Positions 1-64,000 are shown, numbered from the stretch's first letter. The stretch: DNA of 64,000 bases from Hymenobacter sp. GOD-10R (GCF_035609205.1 NZ_CP141184.1:3686501-3750500); one strand, 5' to 3'. Translations and numbers: made by a program. The notes: generated from the letters alone by a model not told the origin.

Positions 1-1
1 G

Positions 2-115
2 CACCCCGACCCAGGCGCCCGCATTGAAGCCATTACGGCCAAAGCCGCAAGTTTAGGCTGCACCGGCCGCTCGGTTGATAACTCGTCATTTTTGGCGCTG
101 CAAAAAGCACTATAA
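2..115 (+). CDS. C-terminal fragment of an unidentified protein (5' end outside window)
   Basis: An open frame runs from the window edge to a TAA at 113-115, giving 37 residues that begin HPDPGARIEAI and end FLALQKAL. It is followed at once by a strong hairpin terminator, as expected for the true end of a gene. I do not recognise the family from so short a tail, so no function is proposed. Confidence 0.55.
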   Translation, partial: HPDPGARIEAITAKAASLGCTGRSVDNSSFLALQKAL

Positions 116-136
116 GCTGCTCCAAAAGCATTCCTG

Positions 137-175
137 ACAACGTCCGCTGCACTAGTAGCGGACGTTGTTGTTTTT
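137..175 (+). terminator. Rho-independent terminator
   Basis: The inverted repeat ACGTCCGCT / AGCGGACGT with an 8-nt loop is followed by TTGTTGTTTTT. It ends the truncated gene at the window edge. Confidence 0.8.
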
Positions 176-243
176 AGGCGTACCGTAACATTACCGTTGA
201 GGCTTCTCGTATCTTCTGGCCATACCGTTCTTTGTTGCCAACT

Positions 244-1377
244 ATGCCTCTTCTCGACAAACTAAATGACTGGGCTGAACGCGCCGATGACCTCGTGCTT
301 CAGATGCGTGCTCGGCTTGGGTTGTTGCACCCTTTGCAAATAGTACCTTACTGCAGCTACGGCACCCCTTCCCGGCTCTACGTGAAAGGCCGTTTGCTCA
401 CCGATAAAGGCATCGGCGAGCCCTCGGCCGACGACTCCCGCTGGCAGAACCTGCTGAATATGTACCGGCGTTTCGAGAGCAACGAAATTCCCGATGCTCA
501 GCTGTTAATTCGACCCGCCGATGGTTCCGAGCACCCTATCATGACCGACGAGGAAGGATACTTCACGCTCAACTTAGAGCCCTCGATGCTAGGTGAACCA
601 ATCGACTACTTATGGTACGCCGTGGATGTCGAGTTAAAAGCTGCCCCTGCGCCTATCCCCACACCGCCCGGCATACACGCCCAAGCGCGGGTGCTCATTC
701 CGCCCGCCGACGCGGAGTATGGGGTTATCAGCGACCTAGATGATACTGTTATTCAAACGTCCGCTACGGACTTGTTGCAGATGGCCCGCACGGTGCTGCT
801 GCGCAATGCTCATTCGCGCCTACCGTTCAAGGGGGTAGCCGAGTTCTACCGGGCCTTGCAGCTAGGTCGGAACGGCAAGCGTAACAATCCCTTCTTCTAC
901 GTGAGCAGCAGCCCTTGGAACCTGTATGACTTGCTGGAAGACTTCCTGGCGCTAAACAAAATTCCAGCCGGCCCGATTTTGCTGCGCGATATGGCTCTTA
1001 GCCGCAAGCGCAGCGACCGGCACGTCAACCCACACCACGGTCATAAGCTCAAGGAGATAGAAAACCTGTTGCTCACCTACCCAAAGCTTCCCTTCGTGCT
1101 CATCGGCGACAGTGGGCAGGAAGACGCCAACATCTACCGGGAAGTGGTGCAGCGCCACCCGAACCGTATCCTAGCTATTTACATCCGCGACATCATGCGC
1201 CCCGACCGGGCGACGCTCGTGGAGAAAGTAGCCGAAGACTTACTGGATAACGAGCATAAAGTAGAAATGCTGCTGGTGCAAGACACCGTGCAAGCCGCTG
1301 AGCACGCGGCACGGACTGGCCTTATTTTCACCGAAGCCATTCCAGCTATCGAGAAGGAAAAGCAAAAGGACGAGTAA
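244..1377 (+). CDS. App1-family phosphatidate phosphatase-like protein (DUF2183)
   Basis: The protein is 377 aa from the ATG at 244. A TTG 12 nt upstream is in frame but a less likely start. The C-terminal half has a HAD-like phosphatase signature: VISDLDDTVIQT near residues 161-172, with Asp164 and Asp166 in the DxDxT position, then a YVSSSPWNLYD segment and a late FVLIGDSGQED motif. This order matches the App1 catalytic domain, which in yeast App1 dephosphorylates phosphatidic acid. The N-terminal ~150 residues contain a beta-rich segment resembling the accessory region of bacterial homologues. There is no signal peptide, so it is probably cytoplasmic. The substrate in this organism is inferred from the family only. 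The gene stands alone between two hairpin terminators. Confidence 0.9.
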   Translation: MPLLDKLNDWAERADDLVLQMRARLGLLHPLQIVPYCSYGTPSRLYVKGRLLTDKGIGEPSADDSRWQNLLNMYRRFESNEIPDAQLLIRPADGSEHPIMTDEEGYFTLNLEPSMLGEPIDYLWYAVDVELKAAPAPIPTPPGIHAQARVLIPPADAEYGVISDLDDTVIQTSATDLLQMARTVLLRNAHSRLPFKGVAEFYRALQLGRNGKRNNPFFYVSSSPWNLYDLLEDFLALNKIPAGPILLRDMALSRKRSDRHVNPHHGHKLKEIENLLLTYPKLPFVLIGDSGQEDANIYREVVQRHPNRILAIYIRDIMRPDRATLVEKVAEDLLDNEHKVEMLLVQDTVQAAEHAARTGLIFTEAIPAIEKEKQKDE

Positions 1378-1404
1378 ACCTAGGTCTTCTCGAAACTTCT
1401 TTAT

Positions 1405-1434
1405 GCGGCCCGCTAGGTATTCTTGGCGGGCCGC
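1405..1434 (+). terminator. Hairpin terminator without a T tract
   Basis: The perfect 9-bp stem GCGGCCCGC / GCGGGCCGC with a 12-nt loop lies 28 nt after the App1-like gene. No T run follows. Confidence 0.5.
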
Positions 1435-1583
1435 GTGGCTTGTGAGTCTTGGTATTACTAAAGTACCCTCAGTATAATCCTACGATGGTCACTTCTTGGC
1501 GCCACAATTCGCGTAACTGCTTGTATTCTAGTGAATAGTTATTATCTATAGCGTACCAATCCATCTAAAACTAGTATCCTTCT

Positions 1584-6486: not shown

Positions 6487-6574
6487 CCCCTAGGCAAGGG
6501 CTAACCGCGAAGAATTATCCAAGTTGATAGCAGTGTTTGGAGCAGCGCCGTATAAGAGGTAAAAGCCTACTGCG

Positions 6575-7837: not shown

Positions 7838-8696
7838 CCACCTCAATCGGTAGAGTCAGCTCAATCGGCTCGCCATCGACCTGCGCTAGCACCTGCTGCT
7901 GCCCCGGCACCGAAATGCTAGCCCGTCGGCAACGCATACGGCGCGTGTACGTGGAGGCGTCAAAAGCATTCGTGTACAGTTGATAAAGAATGCCAATACC
8001 GGCCGTTACGGGAAACGGCTCAATGAGGCACACCTCGAACTCCCCATCATCTAGGTCACTATCGGGGTTGATAACCACGTTGCTGCCGAACGTATTGGCA
8101 TTGGCAATGGTCAGCATAAACGCCGGGCCTTCGTACGTCTCGCGGTCCGTCTCAATGCGATACGTGCACGGCTCGTAGTTCATGTACTCCTGCATGGCAA
8201 TACGGATGTACGCACCTGGTCCACGGGTATCCCCGCTGCAAAAACGCTCCACTACCAGCGCATTAAAACCTAGGTCGGCGAGGTGCGCAGAGAAATGCCC
8301 ACCTACTTCCATCGTGTCAATCTCGCGCACCTGGTAATCCCAGATCAGCTGACGCGCCGCCTCCAAATCCTGCGGAATACCTAGGTCCTTGGAGAGTCCA
8401 TTGCCTGAGCCGAGGGGCAGTATTCCCAGCAACAGGTCACTACCGAGTAAGGCTTCAGCTACGAGCTTTACAGTGCCGTCGCCGCCCGCCGCAAATACTG
8501 CATCGTACGAGTGATCGGCTAGGTGGGCGCGCAGCTTATCGAGGTCGTCTTCGCCGGTGGTGTAGAAGAAAGCAGCCGTACGACCCCGCTCTGTGCAGAA
8601 GGCAGTTAGCTCTTCCTCTAGGTCGCCTTTGTCGATGTCACCCGAAACGGGGTTTAGCACGAAAAGCAGCTGGCGTAGAATGGTCGATGGAGGCAT
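7776..8696 (-). CDS. Diacylglycerol/lipid kinase family protein (YegS/DagK-like)
   Basis: The 306-aa protein begins with LLFVLNPVSGDIDKGDLE (nucleotide-binding strand and loop). It continues with FAAGGDGTVKLVAEAL, the diagnostic GGDGT motif, then LGILPLGSGNGLSKDLGIP with the GSGN(D/G) loop. The C-terminal half carries the lobe with FEVCLIEPF and a final strand VVIHPRSLRVLTPV. This is the soluble DAGK-catalytic fold of YegS, DgkB and sphingosine-kinase relatives, which phosphorylate a lipid hydroxyl using ATP. The true lipid is unknown. Its stop lies inside the convergent metallophosphoesterase gene. Confidence 0.93.
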   Translation of the reverse strand: MPPSTILRQLLFVLNPVSGDIDKGDLEEELTAFCTERGRTAAFFYTTGEDDLDKLRAHLADHSYDAVFAAGGDGTVKLVAEALLGSDLLLGILPLGSGNGLSKDLGIPQDLEAARQLIWDYQVREIDTMEVGGHFSAHLADLGFNALVVERFCSGDTRGPGAYIRIAMQEYMNYEPCTYRIETDRETYEGPAFMLTIANANTFGSNVVINPDSDLDDGEFEVCLIEPFPVTAGIGILYQLYTNAFDASTYTRRMRCRRASISVPGQQQVLAQVDGEPIELTLPIEVVIHPRSLRVLTPVPQPEEQE

Positions 8697-10109: not shown

Positions 10110-10925
10110 CTAGCTAACAGGCATGCCCTTGCTGCGCGCAAAGCCGAGCAGCGCCCCATCCAGCTGCAGCCAATTAGAGTTGTAGCTGGCAGCTGCGGGT
10201 CCATGGATGTAGATAGCACTACCGCCTTTGATAACCTTAATTATCTCGGAACTCAGCTCGGTGGGCAGGGCTGGGCAGCCTTGGCTGCGGCCTAGACGGC
10301 CGTGTTGCTGCACAAAAGCTTCGCTCACATACTCAGCGCCATGCACCACAATTGAGCGGTCATGTGCATTGGTGTTATAGTTGGGGTCAAGGCCGTGCAG
10401 CTTCAGCGACAGGCCGTGCTTGCCTTGGTACGTGCGGCCCGTGCGATAAAAACCTAGGCTGCTCATTTCGGAGCCTTCTACGTTGGAAAACTTCTCAGCA
10501 AACTCTTCCCCCGTGTTCTTGCCGTGCGCTACTAGGGTGTTGAATAGCAATTGTTGCCGCTGTAAGTCAATCACCCACAGGCGCTTCATCCGACTGGAGC
10601 GGCTGAAGTCGATAACCGTTAGCACGTGCTTATCCGTCGATACGGAACCGCGGCGTTGCAAGCTATAGTAACCGAGCAGGGCTTCGCGAAATACCGTCAG
10701 CGGCAGACCCGTCGTCGTCAGATTTGCCTGCACGTAGGTAAGAGCTACATTCTGCTCAAAAGCAGCGAGGTACATGGCACGGCGGGCGGCGTCGGTGATG
10801 ATGGGCGTACCCGTTGCTTTTGGCGCTGGGTGCAGCGTAGCCGCGCTAGGGGCGGCACTCACGGGCAGCAAGAAAGTGCTGCAGAAAAGCAAGAAGCTGG
10901 CAATCGTAGTCGGGGCTTTGGTCAT
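10110..10925 (-). CDS. Murein L,D-transpeptidase catalytic domain family protein
   Basis: The 271-aa protein has a signal peptide (SFLLFCSTFLLPVSA). The mature region contains VIDFSRSSRMKRLWVIDLQRQQLLF, then HGLDPNYNTNAHDRSIVVHGAEY and the Cys motif GRSQGCPALP. These match the YkuD-like L,D-transpeptidase catalytic family (PF13645), with His in the VVHGA segment and Cys in SQGCPA as the probable catalytic pair. Such enzymes make 3-3 cross-links or anchor proteins to peptidoglycan; the activity of this subfamily is less well tested. It is convergent with the small membrane protein. Confidence 0.88.
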   Translation of the reverse strand: MTKAPTTIASFLLFCSTFLLPVSAAPSAATLHPAPKATGTPIITDAARRAMYLAAFEQNVALTYVQANLTTTGLPLTVFREALLGYYSLQRRGSVSTDKHVLTVIDFSRSSRMKRLWVIDLQRQQLLFNTLVAHGKNTGEEFAEKFSNVEGSEMSSLGFYRTGRTYQGKHGLSLKLHGLDPNYNTNAHDRSIVVHGAEYVSEAFVQQHGRLGRSQGCPALPTELSSEIIKVIKGGSAIYIHGPAAASYNSNWLQLDGALLGFARSKGMPVS

Positions 10926-11073: not shown

Positions 11074-11481
11074 ATGCTTGCTCGTCGTTTCTACAGTTGC
11101 CTGCTATTCAGCCTTTTTTCCGCTCCAACGCTGTTTCTGGGGGCGTGCGGCCACTCCCTGCCCGACTTTCCCGACTTCGATGCGGCTGCTTGGCAAAGCG
11201 ACTCTTTTGGGTGTCAAAATAAGCGGGCTGGGTTGCTTCCCATTCTTGAAAAACACCGCGCAGAACTATTTGGCGCCCGTACCAACGCTATTGATGCTTT
11301 CCTAGGTCACCCCGATGGGGCCGAACTCGACGAACAAACGGAGAAGACGTACTTCTACTACATTGAGTCAGGACCGCAGTGCGAGCGGGGGCACGCGCGT
11401 TCAGCAGCCAACAAGCTGCTGATTCACTTCGGCGCGACGGGTACCGTTACGGAGATTCACTACGAGCGTCCCCGGAAATAA
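11074..11481 (+). CDS. Hypothetical lipoprotein
   Basis: The 135-aa product has a signal sequence ending in a lipobox-like FLGAC, placing the lipidated Cys at about residue 25. The mature part includes LLPILEKHRAELFG followed by AIDAFLGHPDGAELDEQTEKTYFYYIE and a C-terminal IHFGATGTVTEIHYER strand. The 'LG.PD' turn followed by a strand resembles small BamE/SmpA-like lipoproteins, but the likeness is too weak to assign. A terminator follows 39 nt downstream. Confidence 0.75.
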   Translation: MLARRFYSCLLFSLFSAPTLFLGACGHSLPDFPDFDAAAWQSDSFGCQNKRAGLLPILEKHRAELFGARTNAIDAFLGHPDGAELDEQTEKTYFYYIESGPQCERGHARSAANKLLIHFGATGTVTEIHYERPRK

Positions 11482-11519
11482 CCTAGGCTCCGGGTGCTGG
11501 CCACCGTGGCGTATAAAGC

Positions 11520-14716: not shown

Positions 14717-15523
14717 ATGAAACGTTTTCTTTCCGTGCTGGCTCTTGCAGGAGCTAGCTTGCTAGTGGCTCCGGGGGCAGCGCTAGCTCAGACTGACACT
14801 ACCTCCACTAAGCCCCAGCTGAATACGGCACCTCCCGGTTCCAAACCCCAACTCAATACCGCGCCGCCCGGCAGAACCGCCCCGCCTACGTACGAGAAGA
14901 CAGCACCGCGGCCAGCGGTGCCTGTACCGGTTCCACCGCCCATCGATGAGCCGCTGCCTTCCCAGCAGCCACGCCCTAGCAAGGATAATCCTTCGGGGTT
15001 AAGCTTCCCGAAAGGCACGTCTTCTGCCGAGCAGCCGAAGCCGATATACAAGTATTTTGTGTACAGCAACTTTGGCTTAGGCTACAGCAGCCTCTACGGC
15101 CTAAATCAATTCAGCGCCAGTATTGCTCCGGCCATAGGCTACCGGGTTACGGAGAAGTTTGCTTTCGGACCGGGCATTTCGTACGCCTATAACAGCTATG
15201 CTTACCAAGGCGGCGGCAAAGGTATTCACACCAACAGCCTAGGCGTGAAGCTCTTTGGTCAGTATATGGTGTTCAACCAGTTCTTTATTCACGCCGAATA
15301 CGAAGTGACGCACGCCGAGGTACTGTTTGAGGACAACCAAGGATATCTCTATCCGGGCAAGATGACGGTAAAAACGCCGTTGGCTGGTGTTGGCTACCGC
15401 CAGCAGTTCAGTGATAAGTTTGCTGGCGACATCGTAATCCTGTATAACTTCAATGACGGCTACCAGGACATCTACGGCCAGCCAGTTATTCGCTTTAGCT
15501 TCCTATACAACCTAGGTAAGTAG
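14717..15523 (+). CDS. Outer-membrane beta-barrel protein with Pro-rich N-terminal linker
   Basis: The 268-aa protein has a signal peptide (cleavage after ALA, residue ~24). A low-complexity linker rich in Pro and Thr follows to about residue 110 and includes two consecutive 11-residue copies of KPQLNTAPPG(S/R). The remaining ~150 residues are amphipathic strands with Tyr and Gly (NFGLGYSSLYG, SIAPAIGYRVTEKFAFGPGISYAY) and end in FSFLYNLGK, typical of an 8-stranded porin-like fold. No specific family is recognised. It starts 17 nt after the ABC-F gene and is followed by a terminator, so the two probably form an operon. Confidence 0.8.
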   Translation: MKRFLSVLALAGASLLVAPGAALAQTDTTSTKPQLNTAPPGSKPQLNTAPPGRTAPPTYEKTAPRPAVPVPVPPPIDEPLPSQQPRPSKDNPSGLSFPKGTSSAEQPKPIYKYFVYSNFGLGYSSLYGLNQFSASIAPAIGYRVTEKFAFGPGISYAYNSYAYQGGGKGIHTNSLGVKLFGQYMVFNQFFIHAEYEVTHAEVLFEDNQGYLYPGKMTVKTPLAGVGYRQQFSDKFAGDIVILYNFNDGYQDIYGQPVIRFSFLYNLGK

Positions 15524-22324: not shown

Positions 22325-22476
22325 GATCCAGCGCCCAGTCAGGCAATTTATCGAGAATAGTGGTCGACGGCTAAAAGCAAATAACCACATAGAATGTACA
22401 GTTGAGGGTTAGAATAAAGGATGAGTGGTGCTATCTGGCCCGCGGCCGGAGATAGTTGAAGCGAAACCTAGGTAGG

Positions 22477-48213: not shown

Positions 48214-48567
48214 ATGAGCACCGAACTAAATCCTCAAGCTGTAAAATATGCCCGCAAGCTGATCGAAGAAGGCAAGATCAAAAACGACGAAGGCCAGTGG
48301 GGCGAGCACAACCCCGACTCCGACGAGGAAAACAAGTTCCTCGAAAAGCACGAAATCGAGGAGTACGGCAACTGGCACCTAGGTCTCGACAGCGACAAAG
48401 GCGAAGACACAAAAGGTCGCTACAAGTTTCCGTATGGCGACTTCAAAACCGTGCACCGCGACGGCCTGATCGCCGCTAAGGAGCGCGCCGCCCAACAAGG
48501 CTATGCTGACATTGAGAAAGCCGCTGACGAGCTCTTGCAAGCCTTGGAACAGCAGGCAGGCGCTTAG
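48214..48567 (+). CDS. Small acidic protein of unknown function
   Basis: The 117-aa protein is read from the ATG at 48214 (MSTELNPQAVKYARKLIEEGKI). An earlier frame continuation into the repeat region is disfavoured. It is rich in Glu, Asp and Lys, with EGQWGEHNPDSDEENKFLEKHEIEEYGNWHLGLD and a C-terminal helix ADELLQALEQQAGA. There is no signal or membrane segment. I do not recognise a family. A terminator follows 30 nt downstream. Confidence 0.75.
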   Translation: MSTELNPQAVKYARKLIEEGKIKNDEGQWGEHNPDSDEENKFLEKHEIEEYGNWHLGLDSDKGEDTKGRYKFPYGDFKTVHRDGLIAAKERAAQQGYADIEKAADELLQALEQQAGA

Positions 48568-50854: not shown

Positions 50855-50864
50855 CGAAACTTAA

Positions 50865-52211
50865 CTACTTACTCTGCACCAAATGTGCGCGCATGAACTC
50901 GGCAAACACATTATAGTCGGAAGGAATAATGCCGTGGCCGCCGTCGTGCATGTAGTAGCTCAACGTTTGGCCTACTAGCTTGCTAGGCGCGGGCATGGGC
51001 CCGGCGGGTACCCCCTGCTGCCCTAGCAAGTTGTACACCGGCGTAGCCGCCACAGCCGACAGAAACTCGCCTTTCGGGTCGCTCCAATAATCAGTGCTGC
51101 CGGTTTGCAGCAGCAAGGGACGTGGCGCTACCAAGGCTACCAGCATGTGCGAATCCATGGGCGCGTCGGTGCGGTTGGCGAGCTTCTGGTAGTTCTCGCA
51201 AAACTGGTACGGGTAGCGGGTCGGTGCGACGAGGTGGGCAATGGTTTCACCGTAGTTGCGCCGGGCCAGGGCCGCGCCGCCTTCGCCTGACACGCTGGCA
51301 ATCGTGAGGGCAAACCTAGAGTCGTTGGCGCCGGTCCAGAGTACCGTTTTGCCTAGGCGCGAGGCACCTAGCAGGGCTACCCGCTTGCTATCCACGGCTT
51401 TGTCGGTTTCGAAGTAATCGAGGGCGCGGCTCAGGCCCCAGCTCCACGCCGCCACGGCGCCCCACTCATTGGGCGCGAATTTTTCCTGGCCGGACTTGAG
51501 GTAGAGGCTGCGCACGCCATACTTCACGCCGCCATCGAAGTCCGGCTCAATGTCGCCGTAGTACACGGAGGCGACGCCAATGCCTTTCTCCAGAAACGGC
51601 TCTACTGTGAGCTTCATGAAGCCATTCGGGTTGTAGGCTGGCGCTGGCACTTTCTGCTTATCCTTGTTCCAATACTGCCCCTGCCGCACGCCGGGGTCGT
51701 CGATCAGCATGGAGTTCGGCATGAAGTTGATGTTGAGCAGCAGCGGCACCGGCTTGGTGGTGTTGGCGGGCAAATACACCAGCAGATCCATCTTGGGCCC
51801 GTCGTTGCGCTCGGAGAAGTACACCGTTACCTGCTTGCGCGTAGCCTTGCCGTTGAGGGCAGGCGTGCCTTTATCGAACACCTCGAAGCGCAGGTTGCGG
51901 GGCTTGCCGGGCGCGCGGCCGTACACGTTTTGCTCAAACCACGTCCGGATTTCGGGGCGGCGCTGCTTGGTCCAGGTAGCGGCGTCCGTCACCTTTTTGC
52001 TGTTGGCAAGCACCAACGGATCGGGCAGCGTGTAGGTGCCTACTGAGTCTTCGCTGTAGTTTACCGGAATGCCGGCTACTATGCGTGCCGGCTTATTTGC
52101 CGCGGGCGCCTGGGGCGTAGCTGGCGGCTGCGCCTGAGCTATCAAGGCATGCGGTAACAAGCTGAAAGTAGCACAACCTAGGACCACTGAGAAGAAGAAT
52201 GAAGGCTTCAT
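50865..52211 (-). CDS. CE15-like glucuronoyl esterase / carbohydrate esterase
   Basis: The 448-aa secreted alpha/beta hydrolase has a signal peptide ending near IAQAQ. The nucleophile motif is GASRLGKTVLW with Ser284, matching the CE15 G-x-S-R-x-G-K pattern. A following SGEGGAALARRNYGETIAHL and the C-terminal MHDGGHGIIPSDYN (His) fit the fold. CE15 enzymes cleave the ester between 4-O-methyl-glucuronic acid and alcohols such as lignin or glycans. Its ATG overlaps the GH106 stop by 4 nt (ATGA), so the two are translationally coupled. Confidence 0.85.
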   Translation of the reverse strand: MKPSFFFSVVLGCATFSLLPHALIAQAQPPATPQAPAANKPARIVAGIPVNYSEDSVGTYTLPDPLVLANSKKVTDAATWTKQRRPEIRTWFEQNVYGRAPGKPRNLRFEVFDKGTPALNGKATRKQVTVYFSERNDGPKMDLLVYLPANTTKPVPLLLNINFMPNSMLIDDPGVRQGQYWNKDKQKVPAPAYNPNGFMKLTVEPFLEKGIGVASVYYGDIEPDFDGGVKYGVRSLYLKSGQEKFAPNEWGAVAAWSWGLSRALDYFETDKAVDSKRVALLGASRLGKTVLWTGANDSRFALTIASVSGEGGAALARRNYGETIAHLVAPTRYPYQFCENYQKLANRTDAPMDSHMLVALVAPRPLLLQTGSTDYWSDPKGEFLSAVAATPVYNLLGQQGVPAGPMPAPSKLVGQTLSYYMHDGGHGIIPSDYNVFAEFMRAHLVQSK

Positions 52212-55200
52212 TTGGTTTGCATGGTTAACGATTGAGGTTTTCCGCTTGGGCTCTCTGCTTTCTCCACGGCCATAATCCGCACCGGACCTAACAGCCCAGA
52301 CCGACCTAGCTCGTATTGTCCGCCGAAGGGTGCCGTGTACGAATCCAACACTTTCTTGTCGGGGCCAGCTAGCTTATCGCCCATCAGGCGGTTGGTCCAC
52401 TCGTTGATTACTTGGATTTCTACCTGGTTTTTGCCGGGCTTAAGTAGCCTGGTTACGTCGGCCTGGAATGGCGCCTGCCAGAGCAGCTCCAGCTTCTGCC
52501 CGTTCACCGTCACCTCAGCCATGTCGCCGACGCTACCTAGGTCAAGCACGATCCGGCGCCCGTTGTGAAACCACTTCTTACTGGCTTCAATGGTTTTGTG
52601 GTAGGTGGCCGCACCGGAGAAATACTTGATACCAGCATCCTGATTATCCGTCCAAGAAGCTAGCTGCGCGAAGGTTGCTTCGGCTGGGGCACCTAGCTTC
52701 GGGGCAAACGTCACCCGCCACGGCCCCTCTACCGTGAGCAGTGTAGACTCAGTCGGCACCGGCGCCGCAGCCCGAGCGGTGGCGGGCGCCGCGTGATTGA
52801 ACACCACGAACACCGTTTCGCGCTCCTTTAAATGCAGCGGTACAGTAGTTTGCCCACCACTGATGGTGTAGCCGGCCGGCTCCATTTCGCCGGTAGCTGA
52901 GTGCCACAGCGCTACGTCTTTGCCACTCACGCGAAACTGCGCTTTCAGGTCTTGCGTGCTATCAGACCGGTTGACCACATAATACAAATCAGCATCACCC
53001 ACGCGGCGGTGAATCCAAGGGACTTGGCTACCTAGGGGCCGGCTACACTCCACGTCGGGGGTGAGACCGGCCAGGGGCATCACCTGCGCCAGCGGCAAAC
53101 CCCACACGATCTGGCCTTTGCCGTAGTGGCGCTTGGTCCGGCTGCGGCCGTCCAAGTCGCCCCAGACGTCACTGGCAATTTCCTGCAGCTCAGGATCGGA
53201 GCTAGGGTACGCCGTCAGGCCGGGCGCTTTCACGGGCTTGGGACCTACGATGGTGGCACCACCTTGCGCTAGCTCCCGCACTTTGCGCAGCACGGGCAAG
53301 GTCATTTGTTCGATTTCGGGCAATACGAGCACGCCGTAGCTCATGCCGTCGGGTAGCACAAGGCGACCTTTGTCGTTCACCGACATGCGGGTAATCAGCG
53401 CGTCGGCGTTGATGTAGTCGAAGGCGTAGCCCTCGGGCAAAGCGGGCTGCAAACCGGCACCCCAAAACGGCATAGTCGACGGAGCACCTTCGTTGAGCAG
53501 GTACGCCACATCGGCCACGTACTGGCCCTGCTGCAACATAAAGGTGTTGCGGGCTAGGTAGGTCATCAGCGGCTTAGCTTGCTCGGCCCAGGTGATGTTG
53601 CGGTTCAGGTGGGTGCCTACCATCGTATTGCCAGGCTTGGTATCGAGGGGCTGGTGGGCGGAGGTATGGAACACCAAGCGATTGATACCCTGCGTAAACC
53701 AGTAATCACTGATCTTCTTCAGCGTGTACGGCGACTCGTAGTTGCCGCCCGTGAATGACTCAGCCGCAATCAGGTTCTTGCCATACACGTGGCCCGACGA
53801 AGCCGCTCCGCGCACATCCTCGTAGTACATACTCGACGGATGCAGGTCCTTCACCCAAAACTCGCCCATCGGAATATCGACGTACTTTTTATAAAGGAGG
53901 GCGTCTTCAATCGTCTCCAAGGATACGCCGCCCGCTTCCCCATAAGTCTGGATGCCCTGCTTGTGCAGGAAATCGGTGACGGTGCCGTAGTGGTTTTCGG
54001 CGAACATATCCACGAGCGTGCGGCGGAAGTCCCACAGCACCCGGTCGCTGATTTCGGCGCTGCCCACTACCCTACCGGCTAGCACCGGCAAGTACGGCGT
54101 GAGGTCGTAGCCGCGGCGCTTCTGAAACTCGGGCAGCATCTCGTCGGTCCAGTTCTGAATGCCGGCTTCCCAGCTGTCCATCAACATGTAGCGCAAGGCC
54201 TTCCCGTAAAGCGGACCTAGAGCTTGCCGCAGCGGCTCGGTGTAGCCTTGCATGTACGCCTCGGTGTGCTTGCGGCTGAGCTTGTCAACTTCGAGCCCGT
54301 TGGCCGCGGGCACGGCTGGGCGGTTTCTAGCACCGGTGAGCGAGTAGCCTAGGCGCATAATCGTCCACTTGCCGGGCGGCACCTGCCAGGTGAGCGTGCC
54401 GTCGGGTTGCATTTTGGAAGTCAGCACCACCACGTTGGTCGGGCTGATGGTGGCGGGCGCGGCTACTGGTGGCGTGGCCGTTGATTCGTACTCAAACAGA
54501 AAGTTGAAGCCAGCTTTGTCTTCCCAGCGGTTTACCCTAGCTCCGGTGTGCAGTTGAAACTCGTTGAGGGCGTAGCTGCTATCGGGTTGGGCAGGCGCTT
54601 CGGAAATCACCTCGGCGGGCTTCATAGGCGCGCCACTCAGCTCCAGGCGGTAGTAGCGGGCGGTGGTCGTCGGAATAGAAAAGGTGCGGACGGTGCCGCC
54701 GCGGTAGCCTTGCTTGCCCGGCAGCGCCGTGAGCGTGGTAAATTGCTTTCCATCGGAGCTTGCTTGCAAGCGCCCAAACGGAATACCGCGGGTGCCTGCC
54801 ACGGTAAACGCCTGCACCTTTGTGGGTTGCTTAAAGCTATATTGCACCCAAGCTGTGCCACGCTTTTCCGCAGGCTTTACGACCAAAGACGTATTTAGGT
54901 CATCATCCAGCAGCGCTTTGGCGTCGATGGTGCCGGCGTTGGTCATCACTGTTGGCTGTAGGTGCGCTTCTTCCGCTTCGGTCGTAGGAGTTCGGAAGGC
55001 AATAACGGCCGTTTCGCCGTAGAAGCCGGTTGCAGGGCTGTTTTTGCTGCGAGCTAGGTTGCGGATTGCACCTTCCACGGAAGGCGGTTGCGGTAGCTTT
55101 CCTTTGAACGTCTTACCGCCTTCCACCTGCAACTCGCTCCACACCAGCTTCTTCATGGCTTGTTCGGGCTTCACCCACGGGGCGCCGGTGAGACTCCAGC

Positions 55201-55847: not shown

Positions 55848-57293
55848 TTAATAACCAGGATTTTGCGTGATTTTATTTGGGTTCAGGTTCACCTGGTAAC
55901 GTGGAATCGGAAACAGTTGCTCGTACGCCTGCACCGAGTTGCCGCTGCCGATTTCGTCATTGGATAAGCCACTGGCAAAGTGCGCGTTCATCACCGGGAG
56001 CAGGCGACCGGTGCGCAGCAAATCGAACCATCGGTGGCCTTCGTTGTAGAGTTCTAGGCGGCGCTCCTGCTCAAGAGCTAGGCGCATGGCGCTTTGGTTA
56101 CCACGTAAGTTATCGGAGGTGGTGAGGCCGGCGCGGGTACGTACTTGCTGGAGGTAGGTGAAGGCCGCGGCCGTGTTGCCTAGCTCGTTTTGCACCTCAG
56201 CGTACATCAGCAGCATATCGGCGTAGCGCAGCTCAATCCAGTCGTTGCCGGAGTCCACGGTTGTAGTCATGCCTTTATCGAAGTACTTGGTAGTGAAGTT
56301 GTAGGCGCGGCGAGAGCCGGTCAGGCGACTAATCGTGGCCTTGCGCGTGTCGGTGGCGGTGAAGAGGTTATAAAGCTCGTCGGTGATGAGGAAGGTGCCC
56401 ACGCCACGCCGCAGCGCGCCCGTGCCAATATCCTCATTCGCAAAGGCATACTGCACAAACGGGTTGCCCTGCACCGGATCAAAGCCGCGGGCGTACTGCA
56501 CCGCAAAGATGACCTCGGCGTTGTTAGGCTGGGCCGCGTCGAATATGTCAGCGTAGTTGGGCAGCAGGCGGTAGGTGCCAGAGTTGATGACTTCCAGCAG
56601 CTTGGGGCTAGCATCGCCGTAGCGCTTTAATGTGAGGTACACCTTGGCTAGCAAAGCTTTCGCCGCCCCACGCGTGGCCCGACCGATATCGGCGTTTTGG
56701 GTGTACGTCAGGGGCAGCTGCTCGGCGTCCTTCAGATCAGCAATGATCTGCTCGTAGACTTGCGCCACCGGCGTACGGCCAAATTCATAGGCTTCCTGAC
56801 TGGTTTTGATGTCCTTCAACACCAATGGTACGTCGCCGTAGATGCGGACCAGGTTGAAGTACATTAGGGCGCGTAAGAACTTGGCTTCGTTGATGTAGCG
56901 CAGCTTGGTGTCGTCGTTCATCGGGATGTTGCCGATATTATCGAGCACCAGGTTGCAGCGCGAGATGGTGGCGTACGAGCGGTTCCACATCTCGCTCACG
57001 ATACCGTTATCGGCCACCACGTTCGACTCATTAATGGTGATGTGGTCGGTGGAGTTGTTGAACTTGCTGTTGTACGCGTCGTCGGCGGCTAGGTCACCGA
57101 AGGCAAACTTGTAGCGGTACGATTCGCGCAGAGTGAAGTAGGCGTCGTTCAGCACCTGCCGCACGCTGGTTTCGTCGGTGTAGAAGGTGCTCTCGGCGGG
57201 CTGGTCGAGCGGGGTACGATCGAAGTAGTCGTCCTTACAGGCACCTAGGCTCACGGCAAGGACGAGGGCAGAAAGAAATTTGGCCGTTTTCAT
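55848..57293 (-). CDS. susD: SusD/RagB-family glycan-binding lipoprotein
   Basis: The 481-aa protein has a lipobox LGAC (Cys19). The TPR-like fold has SVRQVLNDAYFTLRESYRYKFAFGDLAADDAYNS. The C-terminal part has GNDWIELRYADMLLMYAEVQNELG and LYNEGHRWFDLLRTGRLLPVMN. The ending (YEQLFPIPRYQVNLNPNKITQNPGY) is the SusD hallmark. It binds oligosaccharide on the cell surface and acts as lid to the SusC transporter. It lies 4 nt after susC. Confidence 0.95.
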   Translation of the reverse strand: MKTAKFLSALVLAVSLGACKDDYFDRTPLDQPAESTFYTDETSVRQVLNDAYFTLRESYRYKFAFGDLAADDAYNSKFNNSTDHITINESNVVADNGIVSEMWNRSYATISRCNLVLDNIGNIPMNDDTKLRYINEAKFLRALMYFNLVRIYGDVPLVLKDIKTSQEAYEFGRTPVAQVYEQIIADLKDAEQLPLTYTQNADIGRATRGAAKALLAKVYLTLKRYGDASPKLLEVINSGTYRLLPNYADIFDAAQPNNAEVIFAVQYARGFDPVQGNPFVQYAFANEDIGTGALRRGVGTFLITDELYNLFTATDTRKATISRLTGSRRAYNFTTKYFDKGMTTTVDSGNDWIELRYADMLLMYAEVQNELGNTAAAFTYLQQVRTRAGLTTSDNLRGNQSAMRLALEQERRLELYNEGHRWFDLLRTGRLLPVMNAHFASGLSNDEIGSGNSVQAYEQLFPIPRYQVNLNPNKITQNPGY

Positions 57294-57297: not shown

Positions 57298-60200
57298 TCA
57301 GAAAGTTAGGTTTAAGCCCATAGAGATGTTGCGCGAAATCGGGTAGGTGCCGTTGTCCACGCCGCTGTTGGTGGGGTTGTCGGTGGCGCCGTTGGTGGTA
57401 GCCCCGTTGGCCTGCGGGTTGCGGAAACCACCGGCTTTGGTGAAGGTGTAAATGTTCTGCCCCGTGGCGTAGAGGCGCAGACGCTGCACGTGGATCTTCT
57501 CGGAGAGCACCGTGGGCAGCGTGTAGCCGAGCGTGATGTTGCGGATGCGCAAAAAGCTAGCATCGTAGAGGTAGCGGGTGCTGGAGGCAATGTCGGAGGA
57601 GAGGTTGGTGGTACCAGCCCGGTGAAACTTGCCATTGCCGGGGTCCGACTCCGAGCGCCACCGGTCCAACGACTGCTTCGAGCCGTTTTCGAGCCACCGA
57701 CCTAGGGCTAGCGGCAACTCCTGGCTGCGGTAGATTTCACCGCCCTGTGAGCCATCAAGCAAGATGTTCAGGTCGAAGTTGCTATAGGTAAAGGTGTTGC
57801 CGAACCCGTACACAAAGTCGGGCTGGTAGTTGCCGGCCCGCACTTGGTCGTCGGCGGTGATGCGGCCATCGGGCACGCCACCGGGGCCACTCACGTCGCG
57901 GTAGCGCAAATCGCCAATGCCCTGCGAGCCTAGCTTCGGGTAAGTGTCGACGTCGTTTTGGTTATTGAAGGTGCCGTCGACGATGTACAGGTAAAAGTCG
58001 CCCATGGGGCGGCCCACGTAGTTGCGCACCACACCTTGGTTAGCGAGCTGCGTTTGGCCGCTGGCCAGACTCATGATCTGGTTGCGGTTGAAGGAGATGT
58101 TGAAGTTGGTGTTCCACTTCAACTTCCCGTCGATGTTGAGCGTGTTCAGGGTCACTTCCAGGCCACGGTTGCGCACGTTGCCCACGTTCTGAATCACCGA
58201 CGCCGCCTTGCCATTAATGCTCGGAATATCAGCCGACAAGATGATGTTGCTGTTGCGGTTGTACAGATCCACCGACAGGCCAATGCGGTCGTTCAGAAAA
58301 CCTAGGTCCAGCCCGGCATCAAACTGCTTGTTCTTCTCCCAACCTAGGTCGAGGTTCGAGAAACCACTCGGCCGGAAGGCCACCACCTGTGCGTCGGTGG
58401 TGCCGAAGTTGTAGGCTTCGCGTTGCATGGTGGCAATCCAGGGGTAGTAGCCGGGCAGCTGGTCGTTGCCGGTTTCGCCGTAGCTCGCCCGGATTTTCAG
58501 CATCGACACCGCTTTGTTTTCTGCCAGGAAGCTTTCTTCACTCACGTTCCAGCCCGCTGACACGGATGGGAATATGCCAGCGCGGTTCGTCGGTCCGAAG
58601 CGGCTCGACCGGTCGCGGCGCAACGAGCCCGAGAGCAGGTAGCGTCCTTTATAGTTGTAGTTGAGGCGGCCAAACACGGCATCAAACACGTATTCGCGTC
58701 GCTCCGAAGCACCCTTGTTCAGCACCGCGCCCTGCACATTTTTCACGCTAGAGTTCACGAATGCCACCGGATTGTCGCGGTCGGTGCGGGGTTCCAGGGT
58801 TACGTAGAAGTCGTTTTGGCGCGACACGTCATAACCTAGGAGCGCCGTGAAGTTGTGGTCTTGGTGCAGGGAGAAGTCGTAGGTCGCCGTGTTCGACCAG
58901 TACCAGTTGATGTTGGTTGTGTTGTTGCGGCGAGCCCGGATCTGCGCTAGGTTCGGCGTGGAAATGTTACCCGTGTTGCCGTTGCCGCGGGCCAGGAAAG
59001 GCTCCACAAACCATTCTTCCCGCTCGGACACCAAGCCCACATTCATACGGGAGTTAAGCTTTAGTCCTTCAATGGGTTCGTACTCCAGGTAGGCGTTGCC
59101 GGTCTGTCGGAAGGAGTAGAAAAAGTCCTTATTAGCATCAAGCTTCACCAGCGGATTCGACAGCTCGTCGTTGAAGATGGTTTTCATCTCCGGGTCCTGC
59201 GTAATCACGAAGTAGTCGCCGTTGGGCCGCCACACCGGTAGGATCGGCGGCATCGTCAGTGCCTCGGCCAAGATGCCATCGACACCCGTTGAAGTGTTGC
59301 CGCCGGTGGTTTGCTGCACGCGGCGCTGGGTGTACGACGGTTGCAGGTTCACCCCTACCCGCACTTTGCTGGTCAGGTCGGCGTCGAGGCTAGCCCGCAG
59401 GTTGTAGCGCTTCAGGAAGGTGTTTTTCAGCGTGCCTTGCTGGTCGATGTATCCGCCCGACACCGAGAAACGAACTTTGTCGCTGCCGCCGGTGGCGCTG
59501 AGCTGATAATTCTGGAACGGTGCCTTGCGAAAAATCACGTCCTGCCAGTCGGTGTTGGCCCAACGCTCGGGCTGGTTCAGAAAGGCTGGAATGGGTCGGT
59601 TTTGGTAAGCTAGGCCTTCTTTGGCCATGTCAACGAATTCCTGCCCGTTCAGCAGATCGTAGCGGTGCATCACCGTCTCGACGCCGGCGGTGGCATTTAG
59701 CGAAAACGTCGTCTTGCCCGACTTGCCCCGCTTGGTCGTGACGATGATAACCCCGTTACCGGCCCGCGACCCGTAGATGGCCGCTGAAGCCGCATCTTTC
59801 AGAATGTCAATACTTTCAATATCCTGGGGCGAAATGGCGTTGAACAAGTTACCATCATTCGTCGGATAGCCATCTATAACGTAGAGCGGGCTGTTGCCGC
59901 TGGTAATGGAGCCCGCGCCCCGAATCCGGATGGCCGGTGGGTCGCCGGGAGCCCCGCTCGTTTGCTGCAACTGCACCCCCGACACCTGCCCCACCAGCGC
60001 CTGCGTGGGGTTCGTGACGGGTAGGTTGGCGACCTGGTCGCCTTTCACGCTGGATATGGCCGTCGTGACGGTGCGCTTGCTTTGAGTACCATAGCCTACT
60101 ACTACTACTTCCTTCAGCGCCTGCGTGTCCTCGGAGAGCCGGATGCTCAAGGCCGTGCTAGCTTCCGTCACCGGCACTTCCTGCCTGATAAAGCCTACCG

Positions 60201-60782: not shown

Positions 60783-61808
60783 TTAGTGGGAAGAATGATC
60801 AGAAAGAATAATTCGATTTTGCTCGCGGCTTACGGTCAGCTGAAAGCTTTTTTCTAGCAACTGAAGCAGCGCTTCTAAGTCGCCCACCGAAAAAGTACCC
60901 GAGATCTTGCGCTGGTTGAGCGCCGGGTTTTCGACTACCACGGCCACCCCGTAGGTGTCGCTCAGGCGGGTCGCGACTTCAGCCAACGTCGTGCCGTCGA
61001 ACACCAGCTTGTCGTCCTTCCAGGCAGCGTACGGGGCAGTGTTTACCACTTTGTGCACTACTTGCCGGGGTTGCGCGTCCCAGGTTTCGACCAGCTCGCC
61101 CGGCTTGAGCACCACGTCGTTGCTGCGGGTCCTGTCTGTGAAGCCAACCTTCACCTTGCCCGAAAGCAGCACCACCCGCCCCTGCTGGTGGCGCCGGTAC
61201 ACGGTGAACTTGGTGCCGAGCACCTCCACCCGGAAGCCCGCCGTGGTGCGCACCACAAAGCGGCGGTGGTTGGGCAGGTGCTTCACGGCAAAATACGCTT
61301 CACCATCGAGCCACACCTCCCGCACGCTTGCCTGACCTAGGTCGGCAGCATAGCGCAGCGTTGAGTGGCTATTGAGCGTGACGGTGGAGCCATCCGGAAG
61401 CCGCACTACGCGAGTTTGGCCGTAAGGCGTGGTGAGCTGCGTAAGTGGTGGCGTAGCGTATTGAGTTTGCCAGAGCCACCCACCGCCCGCCGCAACGCCG
61501 ACCAGTACCGCGGCGGCAGCGGCCCAACGTCGCCAAGGCAGGTTGCGCTTCTGCGCTTCCGCTTCGATCTGGTTGGGCACTAAACCTAGCTGCTGCAGGA
61601 GTGCGGCCTGCATGTGGTCAAAATCCGGCGTGTCCTGTGTCAGGCCCTGTTCGTGCTCCAGCAGCTGCGCGTATTTCTCCATCCAATGCTGCGCCACCAA
61701 CGCATTGGTGGGCTGGGCTAACCAAGCCAGCACGGCACGGGTTTCCGCGGGTGAAGATTGGCGCCGCAGGTACCGCAGATACGCTTCGAAATCGACTGGA
61801 GTAGGCAT
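60783..61808 (-). CDS. FecR-family anti-sigma factor
   Basis: The 341-aa protein has a cytoplasmic helical N-terminal domain (FEAYLRYLRRQSSPAETRAVLAWLAQP), one membrane helix at about 92-112 (WAAAAAVLVGVAAGGGWLW) and a periplasmic FecR domain (TPYGQTRVVRLPDGSTVTLNSHSTLRYAADLG). The C-terminal STN-like domain FDGTTLAEVATRLSDTYGVAVVVENPALNQRKISGTFSVGDLEALLQLL pairs with the transporter's STN domain. It holds the ECF sigma encoded divergently, and its own transcript carries susC and susD. Confidence 0.94.
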   Translation of the reverse strand: MPTPVDFEAYLRYLRRQSSPAETRAVLAWLAQPTNALVAQHWMEKYAQLLEHEQGLTQDTPDFDHMQAALLQQLGLVPNQIEAEAQKRNLPWRRWAAAAAVLVGVAAGGGWLWQTQYATPPLTQLTTPYGQTRVVRLPDGSTVTLNSHSTLRYAADLGQASVREVWLDGEAYFAVKHLPNHRRFVVRTTAGFRVEVLGTKFTVYRRHQQGRVVLLSGKVKVGFTDRTRSNDVVLKPGELVETWDAQPRQVVHKVVNTAPYAAWKDDKLVFDGTTLAEVATRLSDTYGVAVVVENPALNQRKISGTFSVGDLEALLQLLEKSFQLTVSREQNRIILSDHSSH

Positions 61809-62979: not shown

Positions 62980-63045
62980 CGTCCCGGAGAAAGTGCGTCT
63001 ACCCACCAGCCGGACGGCTACGCCACCTAGGCCACGTACCATAAA

Positions 63046-63077
63046 ACCCTGACAGAGGCTTGAAGCCCTGTCAGGGT
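63046..63077 (+). terminator. Hairpin terminator of the sigma gene
   Basis: Perfect 10-bp stem ACCCTGACAG / CTGTCAGGGT, loop of 12 nt. T run is weak. Confidence 0.7.
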
Positions 63078-63190
63078 CAAAACGTCTTACGACTTACCGC
63101 TCTGGTAGCCATGCTTCGCCAAAACCAGCCGTTCTGTTTTTTAGAATACATTTACACTCATTGCTTACCAACCACAACCCTCCTATCCGA

Positions 63191-63592
63191 ATGAGTATCA
63201 CGTTAGAACAAGCTGAACAAGCTATCAAAGCCGCCAAGCAGAAATCAACCGAGCTAGGTGTCAAAATGAACATCGCCGTGGTAGATGCCGGTGCCAACCT
63301 CACGGCGTTCGCCCGCATGGACGACGCTTGGCTGGGCTCGGTCGACATTGCCATGCGTAAGGCCCGCACCGCCCGCTTCTTCGACATGCCCACCGGCAAC
63401 CTAGGCCAAGCCTCCCAGCCCGGTGGCTCGCTCTACAACATCGAGCACTCCAACGGCGGCCTGATCACCTTCCCCGGCGGCTTACCCATCAAGGACGGCA
63501 GCGGTAAGATCATCGGCGCTATTGGGGTGTCGGGCGACACCGTGGAGAACGACCACACCGTAGCGCAGGCTGGTGTGGATGCGTTGCAATAG
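63191..63592 (+). CDS. GlcG/HbpS-family protein
   Basis: The 133-aa protein is read from the ATG at 63191. The HbpS/GlcG fold is seen in [64 protein letters not shown] and [27 protein letters not shown]. Family members bind haem or cobalamin-like ligands or are found in glycolate operons, but the function here is not known. No signal peptide is visible. A perfect 56-nt palindrome follows. Confidence 0.9.
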
Positions 63593-63601
63593 GCTCCCCA
63601 A

Positions 63602-63657
63602 AAGCTCTTCAAACAAAAAGCCGGACCTAGGTCCGGCTTTTTGTTTGAAGAGCTTTG
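63602..63657. terminator. Perfect 56-nt palindrome, probable bidirectional terminator
   Basis: Two 28-nt arms pair without any mismatch or loop, from AAAGCTCTTC at 63602 to GAAGAGCTTT at 63657. The centre is CCTAGG. Inner part (GCCGGACC / GGTCCGGC, then TTTTT) would be a terminator on both strands. Confidence 0.85.
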
Positions 63658-63774
63658 TCAAAGTCCTTCCCCATTCGGACTGCTGAGCGTCGCCGGACCG
63701 GTTGCTGTGTGCATCGTTCGGGGGTTGTTCGCTTATTGCTATTTGAACCAATTTGTGCAATGACTACAGCCGAT

Positions 63775-63811
63775 AACCGGTCGGGCACCTAGGACGTTGG
63801 ATCGGCAGGCG
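63775..63811. repeat. 37-bp palindromic repeat, copy 3
   Basis: AACCGGTCGGGCAC ... GGATCGGCAGGCG aligns without gaps to the copies at 36825 and 45859. Confidence 0.7.
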
Positions 63812-63833
63812 GCGCTACAGGTACACCTTCCAA

Positions 63834-64000
63834 CTAAGCTCCCTGCCCGAGTAGCCGCATGAAGGCGCCGTCCATGACATAGGTAGAGCCCGATACGTAG
63901 TCCGAATCGGCGGAGGCTAGGAACAGGGCTAGCTTAGCAATTTCCTCGGGGTGGCCGGCTCGCTTCATTGGAATCTTCTGCGCTTGCTCGTCACGAAACT
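63834..64000 (-). CDS. SDR-family oxidoreductase, C-terminal fragment (5' end outside window)
   Basis: The minus frame reads 55 residues ending at a TAG (63834-63836), including [42 protein letters not shown]. The GxPxEIAxxxLFLAS and YVxGxxxxxDGG-like pattern is the C-terminus of classical short-chain dehydrogenases. The catalytic SYK region lies outside the window. Substrate cannot be inferred. Confidence 0.9.

Follow-up and report, generated by a model that had tools for sequence, protein, structure and literature searches.

Highly iterated palindromes (HIPs) have been described from cyanobacteria, where HIP1 (GCGATCGC) and the alternates TCGATCGA, GGGATCCC, GGCGCC, rCCGGy and GCsGC occur at about 500-2500 per Mb in coding and non-coding DNA, each as a core with a preferred outer pair, and with other palindromes in some lineages (in the sections of PMC4390886 drawn on here). 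The present analysis concerns the hexamer CCTAGG in a 64,000-nucleotide stretch of Hymenobacter sp. GOD-10R (GCF_035609205.1, NZ_CP141184.1:3686501-3750500; hereafter the window), in the genome that carries it (G000) and in related genomes. CCTAGG belongs to the HIP class: it was over-represented after correction, spread over coding and non-genic DNA, and conserved beyond background. Its pattern is that of an octamer-specific attractor at the DNA level that has dialects, excludes close neighbors and is present in several lineages.

The origin of HIP1 is unsettled, with a by-product of repair proposed in the cited sections of PMC4390886 and selection or chromosome structure in work cited in the portion of PMC6604393 used here. 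In the former source, Elhai reports one or more putative enzymes for each of the highly over-represented sequences in cyanobacteria, and some HIP1-rich genomes are without a CGATCG enzyme. Among dispersed sequences of another kind, the DNA uptake sequences (DUS) of Neisseria are spaced to match the size of conversion fragments and do not occur in genes acquired recently (PMC2397512), DUS form eight dialects with a common core (PMC3630211), and a second uptake signal sequence (USS) within 100 bp adds no detectable binding by the receptor (PMC7811141), all three papers being cited from selected passages.

The Hymenobacter element resembles HIP1 and the alternate HIPs as a short palindrome of coding and non-genic DNA with a core, an outer pair and lineage variants, and differs from them in its occurrence in Bacteroidota, its CTAG core, its sporadic distribution within one family and the lack of any candidate methyltransferase found in G000. 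With DUS and USS it shares thousands of copies, dialects with a common core, a deficit in recent acquisitions and, presumably, accumulation by drive; it differs from them in being palindromic, in its length of only 6-8 bp and in the absence of evidence for competence. HIP1 and the alternate HIPs are the nearest kind of element, and the dialects of uptake sequences offer the nearest functional analogy. The same hexamer is the target of AvrII/BlnI-type restriction-modification (site named in PMC1939737), although here it is over-represented and no matching methyltransferase was found in G000. Escherichia coli K-12 is without GCCTAGGC (0 vs. 151 expected). Restriction is expected to favor avoidance of a site, not an excess. 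The open-licence literature yielded no report of CCTAGG in Hymenobacter, of iterated palindromes or any such system in Bacteroidota, or of Hymenobacter methylomes.

The window contains 62 CCTAGG sites where base composition predicts 18.9. A preliminary description, made from the sequence alone, had counted about 60, which was accurate, and had expected roughly 20 at about 57% GC, of which the expectation was sound and the GC content was too high (55.7%). The excess survived both kinds of shuffling: dinucleotide shuffles of the window gave 13.9 ± 3.4 copies (n = 100, largest 22), and shuffles that kept amino acids, per-gene codon counts and non-genic dinucleotides gave 13.0 ± 3.2 (n = 100, largest 21). 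Under the latter scheme the control palindromes GGCGCC and GGATCC numbered 52 vs. 44.7 and 1 vs. 8.9, respectively, and 804 kb of chromosome (the window plus 37 stretches of 20 kb each) held 683 CCTAGG vs. 168.6 ± 11.9 in 30 shuffles. The octamer ACCTAGGT was more extreme still, with 20 copies in the window vs. 0.9 expected and 234 in the 804 kb vs. 10.3. Gene calls came from a simple codon-usage caller, not from annotation. The window lies on contig C1 (6.76 Mb) of a 7.5-Mb genome that has 5585 CCTAGG copies in all. Its lepA places it in Hymenobacter, the matches among named genomes being Hymenobacter sp. BT18 (94%) and H. terrenus (92%); BT18 has lepA at precisely the position seen in G078. 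A maximal-order Markov model of the window predicts 56 copies, a figure that reflects no more than the independence of the left and right flanks of CTAG and leaves the excess of the pentamers unexplained. The window has 321 CTAG, 223 of them with C or G on either side, so the excess is broader than CCTAGG. Chance and codon usage are ruled out as causes by the shuffles together with the fixed amino-acid test given below.

Among 204 family genomes, 120 of them Hymenobacter, 12 have 2027-8806 copies (rich), 4 have 763-1209 and 188 have 54-677 (poor). The rich genomes are nine of the 120 Hymenobacter (G000, G050 and G059, together clade A; G018, G156 and G177; and G021, G033 and G071) and three of eight in a second genus, g51 (G257, G258, and G261), so that most relatives of the window's genome have little CCTAGG. 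The intermediate genomes are G175, G057, G158, and G064 (763 copies in G064). In an earlier draw, 7 of 91 Hymenobacter genomes exceeded 2000 copies and 58 genomes elsewhere in the order had 1-1349. With rounded genome sizes, G018, G156, and G177 have about 365-400 copies per Mb and the other nine rich genomes about 740-1480. G156, G177, G175, and G258 contributed copy counts but no codon contexts. A lepA tree that covers 53 Hymenobacter genomes (9 rich, 40 poor, and 4 between) requires four changes of the rich or poor state; bootstrap trees require four to five, and the well supported branches alone force three. Clade A adjoins poor G032, which is the nearest poor genome by lepA and has 308 copies; G156, G018, and G177 group with G175; and G021/G033 and G071 stand among poor G040, G047, and G173.

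Sites occur within genes and outside them. With codon boundaries shown as hyphens, 48 of the 62 window sites are genic in the frame x-CTA-GGn, one is CCT-AGG, one lies across a gene end, and 12 were called non-genic. Density in G000 was 0.80 per kb in coding and 0.89 per kb in non-genic DNA, as the preliminary description had proposed in placing sites in both. Non-genic copies exceeded expectation in G000 (148 vs. 40.1), G033 (121 vs. 19.4), and G071 (80 vs. 11.8) and fell short of it when nine poor genomes were summed (5 vs. 12.7). Seventeen chromosome stretches of G000 were fairly even (0.50-1.45 per kb), and the plasmid-sized contigs C2, C3, and C4 were poorer (0.05, 0.50, and 0.25 per kb in 20 kb of each). 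The flank preferences on the two sides of CCTAGG mirror each other. A replication or segregation signal, raised in the preliminary description, finds no support in what was a light test only: density is fairly even over the 17 stretches and a palindrome is without orientation. Sites directly after stop codons, also described there, are real. In the 804 kb of G000, density was 3.1 per kb in the first 20 nt past stops and 0.3-1.0 per kb past 60 nt, and the first 20 nt reached 5.2, 5.6, 4.2, and 4.3 per kb in G033, G071, G050, and G059; this was the highest or near-highest density in all five rich genomes examined. Three such sites had been placed at 1379, 6487, and 11481; the first position is correct and the others start at 6489 and 11482, one to two bases away.

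The strength of the attraction was measured where the amino acids are fixed, as the choice of Leu codon where C precedes and Gly (GG) follows (C-Leu-GG). CTA was used at 636 of 935 such positions in clade A (68%) and at 466 of 755 in G033, G071, and G021 (62%; G033 290/397, G071 151/323), compared with 18 of 209 (9%) in a pool of nine poor genomes, from which G064 was omitted (CTA 0.29 of 14). A smaller earlier sample of G021, G033, and G071 had given 125/189. The two g51 genomes sampled, at 15 kb each, gave 11/15 (G257) and 9/13 (G261), and G018 (20 kb) gave 0.35 of 20. In the three best sampled genomes CCTAGG occupies 47-73% of C-Leu-GG opportunities. Before A, C or T, Leu was written CTA at similar frequencies in all groups (0.096 in clade A, 0.079 in G021/G033/G071, 0.080 in the poor pool). 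Relative to the poor pool, CTA was favored in clade A 11-fold over CTC, 44-fold over CTG, 7-fold over CTT, 14-fold over TTA, and 26-fold over TTG, and in G033, G071, and G021 together 13- to 25-fold over each other Leu codon, the overall range being 7- to 53-fold. CTA gains over all five other Leu codons, so every neighbor tested, including those a transversion away, yields to the palindrome. An effect of rare CTA codons on translation was rejected: the use of CTA outside the motif was independent of nearby CCTAGG (0.166, 0.148, 0.163, and 0.141 for 0, 1, 2, and 3 or more within 300 bp). As a separate observation, Leu-Gly dipeptides in the sampled proteins of G033 and G071 stood at 1.12 times expectation (0.96 in the poor pool, 1.01 in clade A), which may reflect lineage composition rather than the motif.

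The preference extends beyond the hexamer and differs among lineages. In clade A, CTAG between two strong bases was enriched in all four combinations, with A favored before and T after, and in G021, G071, G257, and G261 the excess was chiefly at CCTAGG itself, that of G033 being somewhat broader. The outer base was examined at the third position of the Gly codon after CCTAGG, which is free, and compared with the same position after Leu CTC, CTG or CTT. T occupied this position at 0.67 in G000 (n = 483), 0.52 in G050 (n = 77), and 0.83 in G059 (n = 76), against 0.24, 0.23, and 0.47 after the other codons. In G071 the base was instead G (0.70, n = 151, vs. 0.23, n = 158), and the base before CCTAGG was C (0.71 vs. 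0.26). Since the free third base is lineage-specific, the repeated unit spans eight bases and comes in dialects: ACCTAGGT for clade A, CCCTAGGG for G071. The unit of clade A is the 8-base palindrome ACCTAGGT, in which G is tolerated at the second base and C at the seventh.

Occupied sites avoid one another at short range. At 1690 C-Leu-GG positions in six rich genomes (G018 was omitted from pooled spacing tests), occupied sites formed fewer pairs than expected at 6-30 bp (11 vs. 23.5, z -3.8) and at 30-60 bp (13 vs. 25.8, z -3.4), with a weaker deficit at 60-300 bp (z -1.7 to -2.3) and none farther out. None of eight control classes had a comparable short-range deficit, and one, of the C-Pro-GG type, had a short-range excess instead; the relaxed motif classes of clade A gave a weaker spacing effect. 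A regression that included gene covariates (n = 1485) put the drop in log-odds per neighboring CCTAGG at 1.54 for 6-30 bp, 1.00 for 30-60 bp, about 0.7 to 150 bp, and about 0.4 to 300 bp. The strictest test, permutation within genes, reached significance at 6-60 bp alone (24 vs. 35.8, p 0.003), and pair tables below 60 bp showed an excess of on-off pairs without one of off-off pairs. A first reading, with exclusion to 300 bp, was weakened by the permutation and by a pair correlation near zero beyond 100 bp, and the shorter range was adopted. Short-range exclusion (less than 60 bp) is taken as real; exclusion at longer range is unproven.

Sites were conserved among rich relatives and largely missing from poor ones. 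Over 62 kb aligned to G050 at 85% identity, 40 of 59 CCTAGG were kept vs. 376 of 909 for all palindromic hexamers, and the figures for G059 were 20/38 vs. 216/653. In four poor genomes (G032, G172, G026, and G061) CCTAGG was present at 2 of 52 positions vs. 166 of 860. When CTAG flanked by C or G was compared with poor genomes, 51 of 162 comparisons were one base apart and 39 of those 51 read CCAG or CTGG. Better conservation had been predicted for isolated sites, and this failed, with isolated vs. crowded sites kept at 23/37 vs. 17/22 in G050 and at 9/22 vs. 11/16 in G059. The pattern of the lepA site at 44643 across five other rich genomes is consistent with convergence at the same codon. 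The 62 sites are given below by position, strand (".", the hexamer being a palindrome), octamer and context; "kept" means that CCTAGG is also present in the named relative.

1379..1384,., CCTAGG in ACCTAGGT; non-genic, 1 base past a stop codon
4390..4395,., CCTAGG in CCCTAGGT; TAG is the stop codon of open reading frame (ORF) 1584-4394; kept G050
6489..6494,., CCTAGG in CCCTAGGC; non-genic, 2 bases past a stop codon
7186..7191,., CCTAGG in CCCTAGGT; x-CTA-GGn
8269..8274,., CCTAGG in ACCTAGGT; x-CTA-GGn; kept G050, G059
8380..8385,., CCTAGG in ACCTAGGT; x-CTA-GGn; kept G050, G059
10453..10458,., CCTAGG in ACCTAGGC; x-CTA-GGn; kept G050; also in poor G032
11301..11306,., CCTAGG in TCCTAGGT; called non-genic, overlaps mechanical ORFs 10970-11305 and 11074-11481; kept G050
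11482..11487,., CCTAGG in ACCTAGGC; immediately past the stop of ORF 11074-11481
13499..13504,., CCTAGG in GCCTAGGT; x-CTA-GGn; kept G050
13541..13546,., CCTAGG in ACCTAGGT; x-CTA-GGn; kept G059
14336..14341,., CCTAGG in TCCTAGGC; x-CTA-GGn; kept G050
15238..15243,., CCTAGG in GCCTAGGC; x-CTA-GGn; kept G050
15511..15516,., CCTAGG in ACCTAGGT; x-CTA-GGn; kept G050, G059
18858..18863,., CCTAGG in ACCTAGGT; x-CTA-GGn, AcrB-type gene; kept G050
19551..19556,., CCTAGG in ACCTAGGG; x-CTA-GGn; kept G050
20175..20180,., CCTAGG in ACCTAGGC; x-CTA-GGn; kept G050
20961..20966,., CCTAGG in ACCTAGGA; x-CTA-GGn; kept G050
22467..22472,., CCTAGG in ACCTAGGT; non-genic; kept G050
22499..22504,., CCTAGG in ACCTAGGT; x-CTA-GGn; kept G050
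24835..24840,., CCTAGG in ACCTAGGC; x-CTA-GGn; kept G050
25105..25110,., CCTAGG in ACCTAGGT; x-CTA-GGn; kept G050
25779..25784,., CCTAGG in ACCTAGGG; x-CTA-GGn
27232..27237,., CCTAGG in ACCTAGGG; non-genic; kept G050
27716..27721,., CCTAGG in ACCTAGGC; x-CTA-GGn
28484..28489,., CCTAGG in ACCTAGGC; x-CTA-GGn; kept G050
30074..30079,., CCTAGG in GCCTAGGC; x-CTA-GGn; kept G050
30949..30954,., CCTAGG in GCCTAGGT; x-CTA-GGn; kept G050
31004..31009,., CCTAGG in GCCTAGGT; the sole CCT-AGG frame in the window; kept G059
31063..31068,., CCTAGG in GCCTAGGT; x-CTA-GGn; kept G050, G059
31600..31605,., CCTAGG in ACCTAGGT; x-CTA-GGn; kept G059
33691..33696,., CCTAGG in ACCTAGGT; x-CTA-GGn; also in G033
35443..35448,., CCTAGG in CCCTAGGC; non-genic
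36143..36148,., CCTAGG in ACCTAGGC; x-CTA-GGn
36757..36762,., CCTAGG in ACCTAGGT; non-genic; kept G050
38284..38289,., CCTAGG in CCCTAGGT; x-CTA-GGn
38859..38864,., CCTAGG in CCCTAGGG; x-CTA-GGn; kept G050
40684..40689,., CCTAGG in CCCTAGGT; x-CTA-GGn; kept G050, G059; also in poor G032
42367..42372,., CCTAGG in ACCTAGGC; x-CTA-GGn; also in G050, G059, G033, G021
43146..43151,., CCTAGG in ACCTAGGT; x-CTA-GGn; also in G050, G033, G021, not in G059
44643..44648,., CCTAGG in ACCTAGGG, lepA; also in G050, G059, G033, G021, G071; not in 4/4 aligned poor genomes, nor in G018
44925..44930,., CCTAGG in ACCTAGGA, lepA; kept G050, G059
46885..46890,., CCTAGG in GCCTAGGT; x-CTA-GGn; kept G050
47713..47718,., CCTAGG in CCCTAGGT; x-CTA-GGn; also in G018
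47993..47998,., CCTAGG in ACCTAGGT; within a dispersed intergenic repeat
48378..48383,., CCTAGG in ACCTAGGT; x-CTA-GGn; kept G050, G059
50113..50118,., CCTAGG in CCCTAGGT; x-CTA-GGn; kept G050
51352..51357,., CCTAGG in GCCTAGGC; x-CTA-GGn
52177..52182,., CCTAGG in ACCTAGGA; x-CTA-GGn; kept G059
52536..52541,., CCTAGG in ACCTAGGT; x-CTA-GGn; kept G050, G059
53031..53036,., CCTAGG in ACCTAGGG; x-CTA-GGn; kept G050, G059
54348..54353,., CCTAGG in GCCTAGGC; x-CTA-GGn
57244..57249,., CCTAGG in ACCTAGGC; x-CTA-GGn; kept G059
57701..57706,., CCTAGG in ACCTAGGG; x-CTA-GGn; kept G050
58301..58306,., CCTAGG in ACCTAGGT; x-CTA-GGn; kept G050, G059
58343..58348,., CCTAGG in ACCTAGGT; x-CTA-GGn; kept G059
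58835..58840,., CCTAGG in ACCTAGGA; x-CTA-GGn; kept G050
61336..61341,., CCTAGG in ACCTAGGT; x-CTA-GGn; kept G050, G059
63026..63031,., CCTAGG in ACCTAGGC; called non-genic
63400..63405,., CCTAGG in ACCTAGGC; x-CTA-GGn; kept G050, G059; also in G018
63626..63631,., CCTAGG in ACCTAGGT; non-genic; kept G050
63788..63793,., CCTAGG in ACCTAGGA; non-genic

The HIP1-like model of the preliminary description is well supported as far as pattern goes, by a conserved palindrome with variable outer bases that recurs about 0.5-2 times per kb inside genes and outside them. As to mechanism, a sequence-specific DNA-recognising factor would act at the palindrome; the palindromic target suggests that the factor is probably dimeric, and the patchy distribution that it has probably been passed between lineages. 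Such a factor would bias which allele survives DNA repair or recombination, a molecular drive possibly joined by selection, and sequences one or two steps away would end as CCTAGG wherever the protein sequence permits. That CCTAGG is the core of a HIP of this clade, spread by molecular drive through a site-specific factor of this kind, is in our judgment an evenly balanced proposition. Molecular drive through repair or recombination is weighed highest among the mechanisms, and drive linked to DNA uptake is its most testable form.

Several observations weigh against this reading. No factor has been pinned down, so drive and selection are not separated. The pull is strongest against CTG in clade A and in G033 (53-fold in the latter), and many sites arose by a single transition, judging from the CCAG and CTGG counterparts in poor genomes, as a mutational process would also give. 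G033 is without a single dialect (T 0.32 and G 0.34, vs. 0.15 and 0.16 otherwise). The within-gene test gave no exclusion beyond 60 bp, and pair correlation was about zero from 100 bp and slightly positive at 450-1000 bp. The finding that isolated sites are no better conserved speaks against a simple redundancy model. Finally, the tree was built from a single gene, and its state changes may be losses as well as gains.

A more specific form of the drive reading is that a methylation-independent HIP, carried by a mobile and not yet described module whose target has CCTAGG at its core and outer bases that vary by lineage, spread into several lineages of Hymenobacteraceae, where drive rewrote the chromosomes, for example as a palindromic uptake or recombination signal that would be the first in Bacteroidota. 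We advance this tentatively, as somewhat less than an even prospect. An outright analogue of DNA uptake sequences, in which a transformation receptor prefers the palindrome, DNA fragments that carry one site enter and recombine preferentially, and sites accumulate as dialects, seems unlikely to us but worth serious consideration. The density of about 1 per kb, the dialects, the deficit on plasmid-sized contigs and the exclusion at short range are all features known from uptake sequences or expected of them, and over-representation was genome-wide with spread spacing (firm only below 60 bp). Uptake sequences in the cited passages are, however, non-palindromic and at least 9-10 bases long, and a longer oriented motif of that sort was not found here; competence has not been shown for these strains, competence genes were not searched for, and the conservation expected of isolated sites did not appear.

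Methylation-directed repair and binding by an architectural protein rank after uptake-linked drive. In the former, the methylation-dependent HIP model of Elhai, the palindrome is marked by an orphan methyltransferase, and mismatch repair guided by the methyl groups moves sequences stepwise toward it. The anatomy is the same as in cyanobacteria, with a palindromic core, a preferred outer pair and alternative palindromes in some lineages, and the model predicts saturation at high site density (both as presented in the cited sections of PMC4390886). Gene content, nevertheless, makes this explanation quite improbable and gives no support to the methylation target suggested in the preliminary description. 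Pfam families were searched in 37 (PF01555), 37 (PF00145), 20 (PF02086), 35 (PF02384), 26 (PF07669), 50 (PF05063), and 120 genomes (PF03852, Vsr); G156 and G177 were searched only for PF07669, PF05063, and Vsr, and the rich g51 genomes only for PF07669 and PF05063. G000 had no match to PF01555, PF00145, PF02086, PF05063 or PF03852, and G021 and G050 had none to the first four. In G000, PF02384 matched a type I HsdM (contig C6), and the second PF07669 match, on contig C2, was MmeI-like; these were its sole matches to the two families. The six methyltransferase families thus gave no palindrome-type candidate in G000, enzymes outside them or too divergent not being excluded. In the seven rich genomes tested, PF01555 occurred only in G033 and G071 and PF00145 only in G018 and G059. 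PF02384 was the only family in all rich genomes tested (7/7), but it was equally common in the others (22/28), with hits classified for G000 alone, and PF07669 was missing from rich G177 and G258. No tested methyltransferase family divides rich from poor genomes. Should G000 indeed have no recognisable methyltransferase of the palindrome type, the leading mechanism would fall away here.

We consider it improbable to the same degree that sites are kept by selection because an abundant protein of the nucleoid or of chromosome architecture binds the palindrome. A chromosome-wide palindrome at the DNA level, exclusion below 60-100 bp that fits footprints, and enrichment past stop codons agree with it, and Xu et al. 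(2018), as cited in the portion of PMC6604393 used here, suggested that HIP1 has a role in chromosome structure. On the other hand, the observed occupancy of C-Leu-GG would demand effective selection at thousands of sites, and presence or absence differs between close relatives (G032).

The atypical mutation bias put forward earlier, whether context-dependent mutation (e.g., C to T at CCAG/CTGG) or lost very-short-patch repair raising CTAG, is very improbable and already contradicted: the 39 of 51 one-difference comparisons and the rarity of Vsr (25 of 120 Hymenobacter, with only G059 and G177 among the rich nine) are in its favor, but CTA displaces CTC, CTT, and TTA as well, the outer base moves to T in one lineage and to G in another, and close neighbors are avoided, which together disfavor it. 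Deamination at CCAG as a single mutation type is insufficient for the first two of these reasons. Gain or loss of Vsr was likewise rejected as the cause, since its status does not track CCTAGG content and only 7 of 95 genomes without Vsr are rich.

Rich and poor genomes stand side by side in one genus, with repeated changes of state and differing outer bases, so the cause can be mapped, as a gene that the rich genomes have in common and their close poor relatives lack. Any mechanism must meet the numbers given by the exclusion at short range and by the strength of the pull on codons.

Dispersed repeats were rejected as carriers of the sites, as only the site at 47993 lies within one of the two repeats recognised in the window. 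This repeat (47900-48112, about 210 bp, intergenic) includes ACCTAGGT and AGCTAGGT in its copy here; among the matches listed, nearly all other copies were in G050 and G059, with one partial copy in G172. The second (50757-50855, about 98 bp) matches both strands, as a REP-like inverted repeat, and among the matches listed its copies ran to tens in G050 and G059, with a further number in G172, G061, and G026. Other palindromes were avoided in the window relative to the maximal-order Markov model (CTCGAG 1 vs. 15.8, CCCGGG 2 vs. 11.7, GATC 124 vs. 208). The first 20,000 nt of contig C2 of G000, which bears the MmeI-like enzyme and a Tn3-type transposase, contained no GATC, compared with 0.85-2.70 per kb on 17 chromosome stretches. 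The reversed control pattern, GGATCC, varied widely among Hymenobacter genomes, many having 0-20 copies and others 100-325, which suggests lineage-specific avoidance of GATC-type sites.

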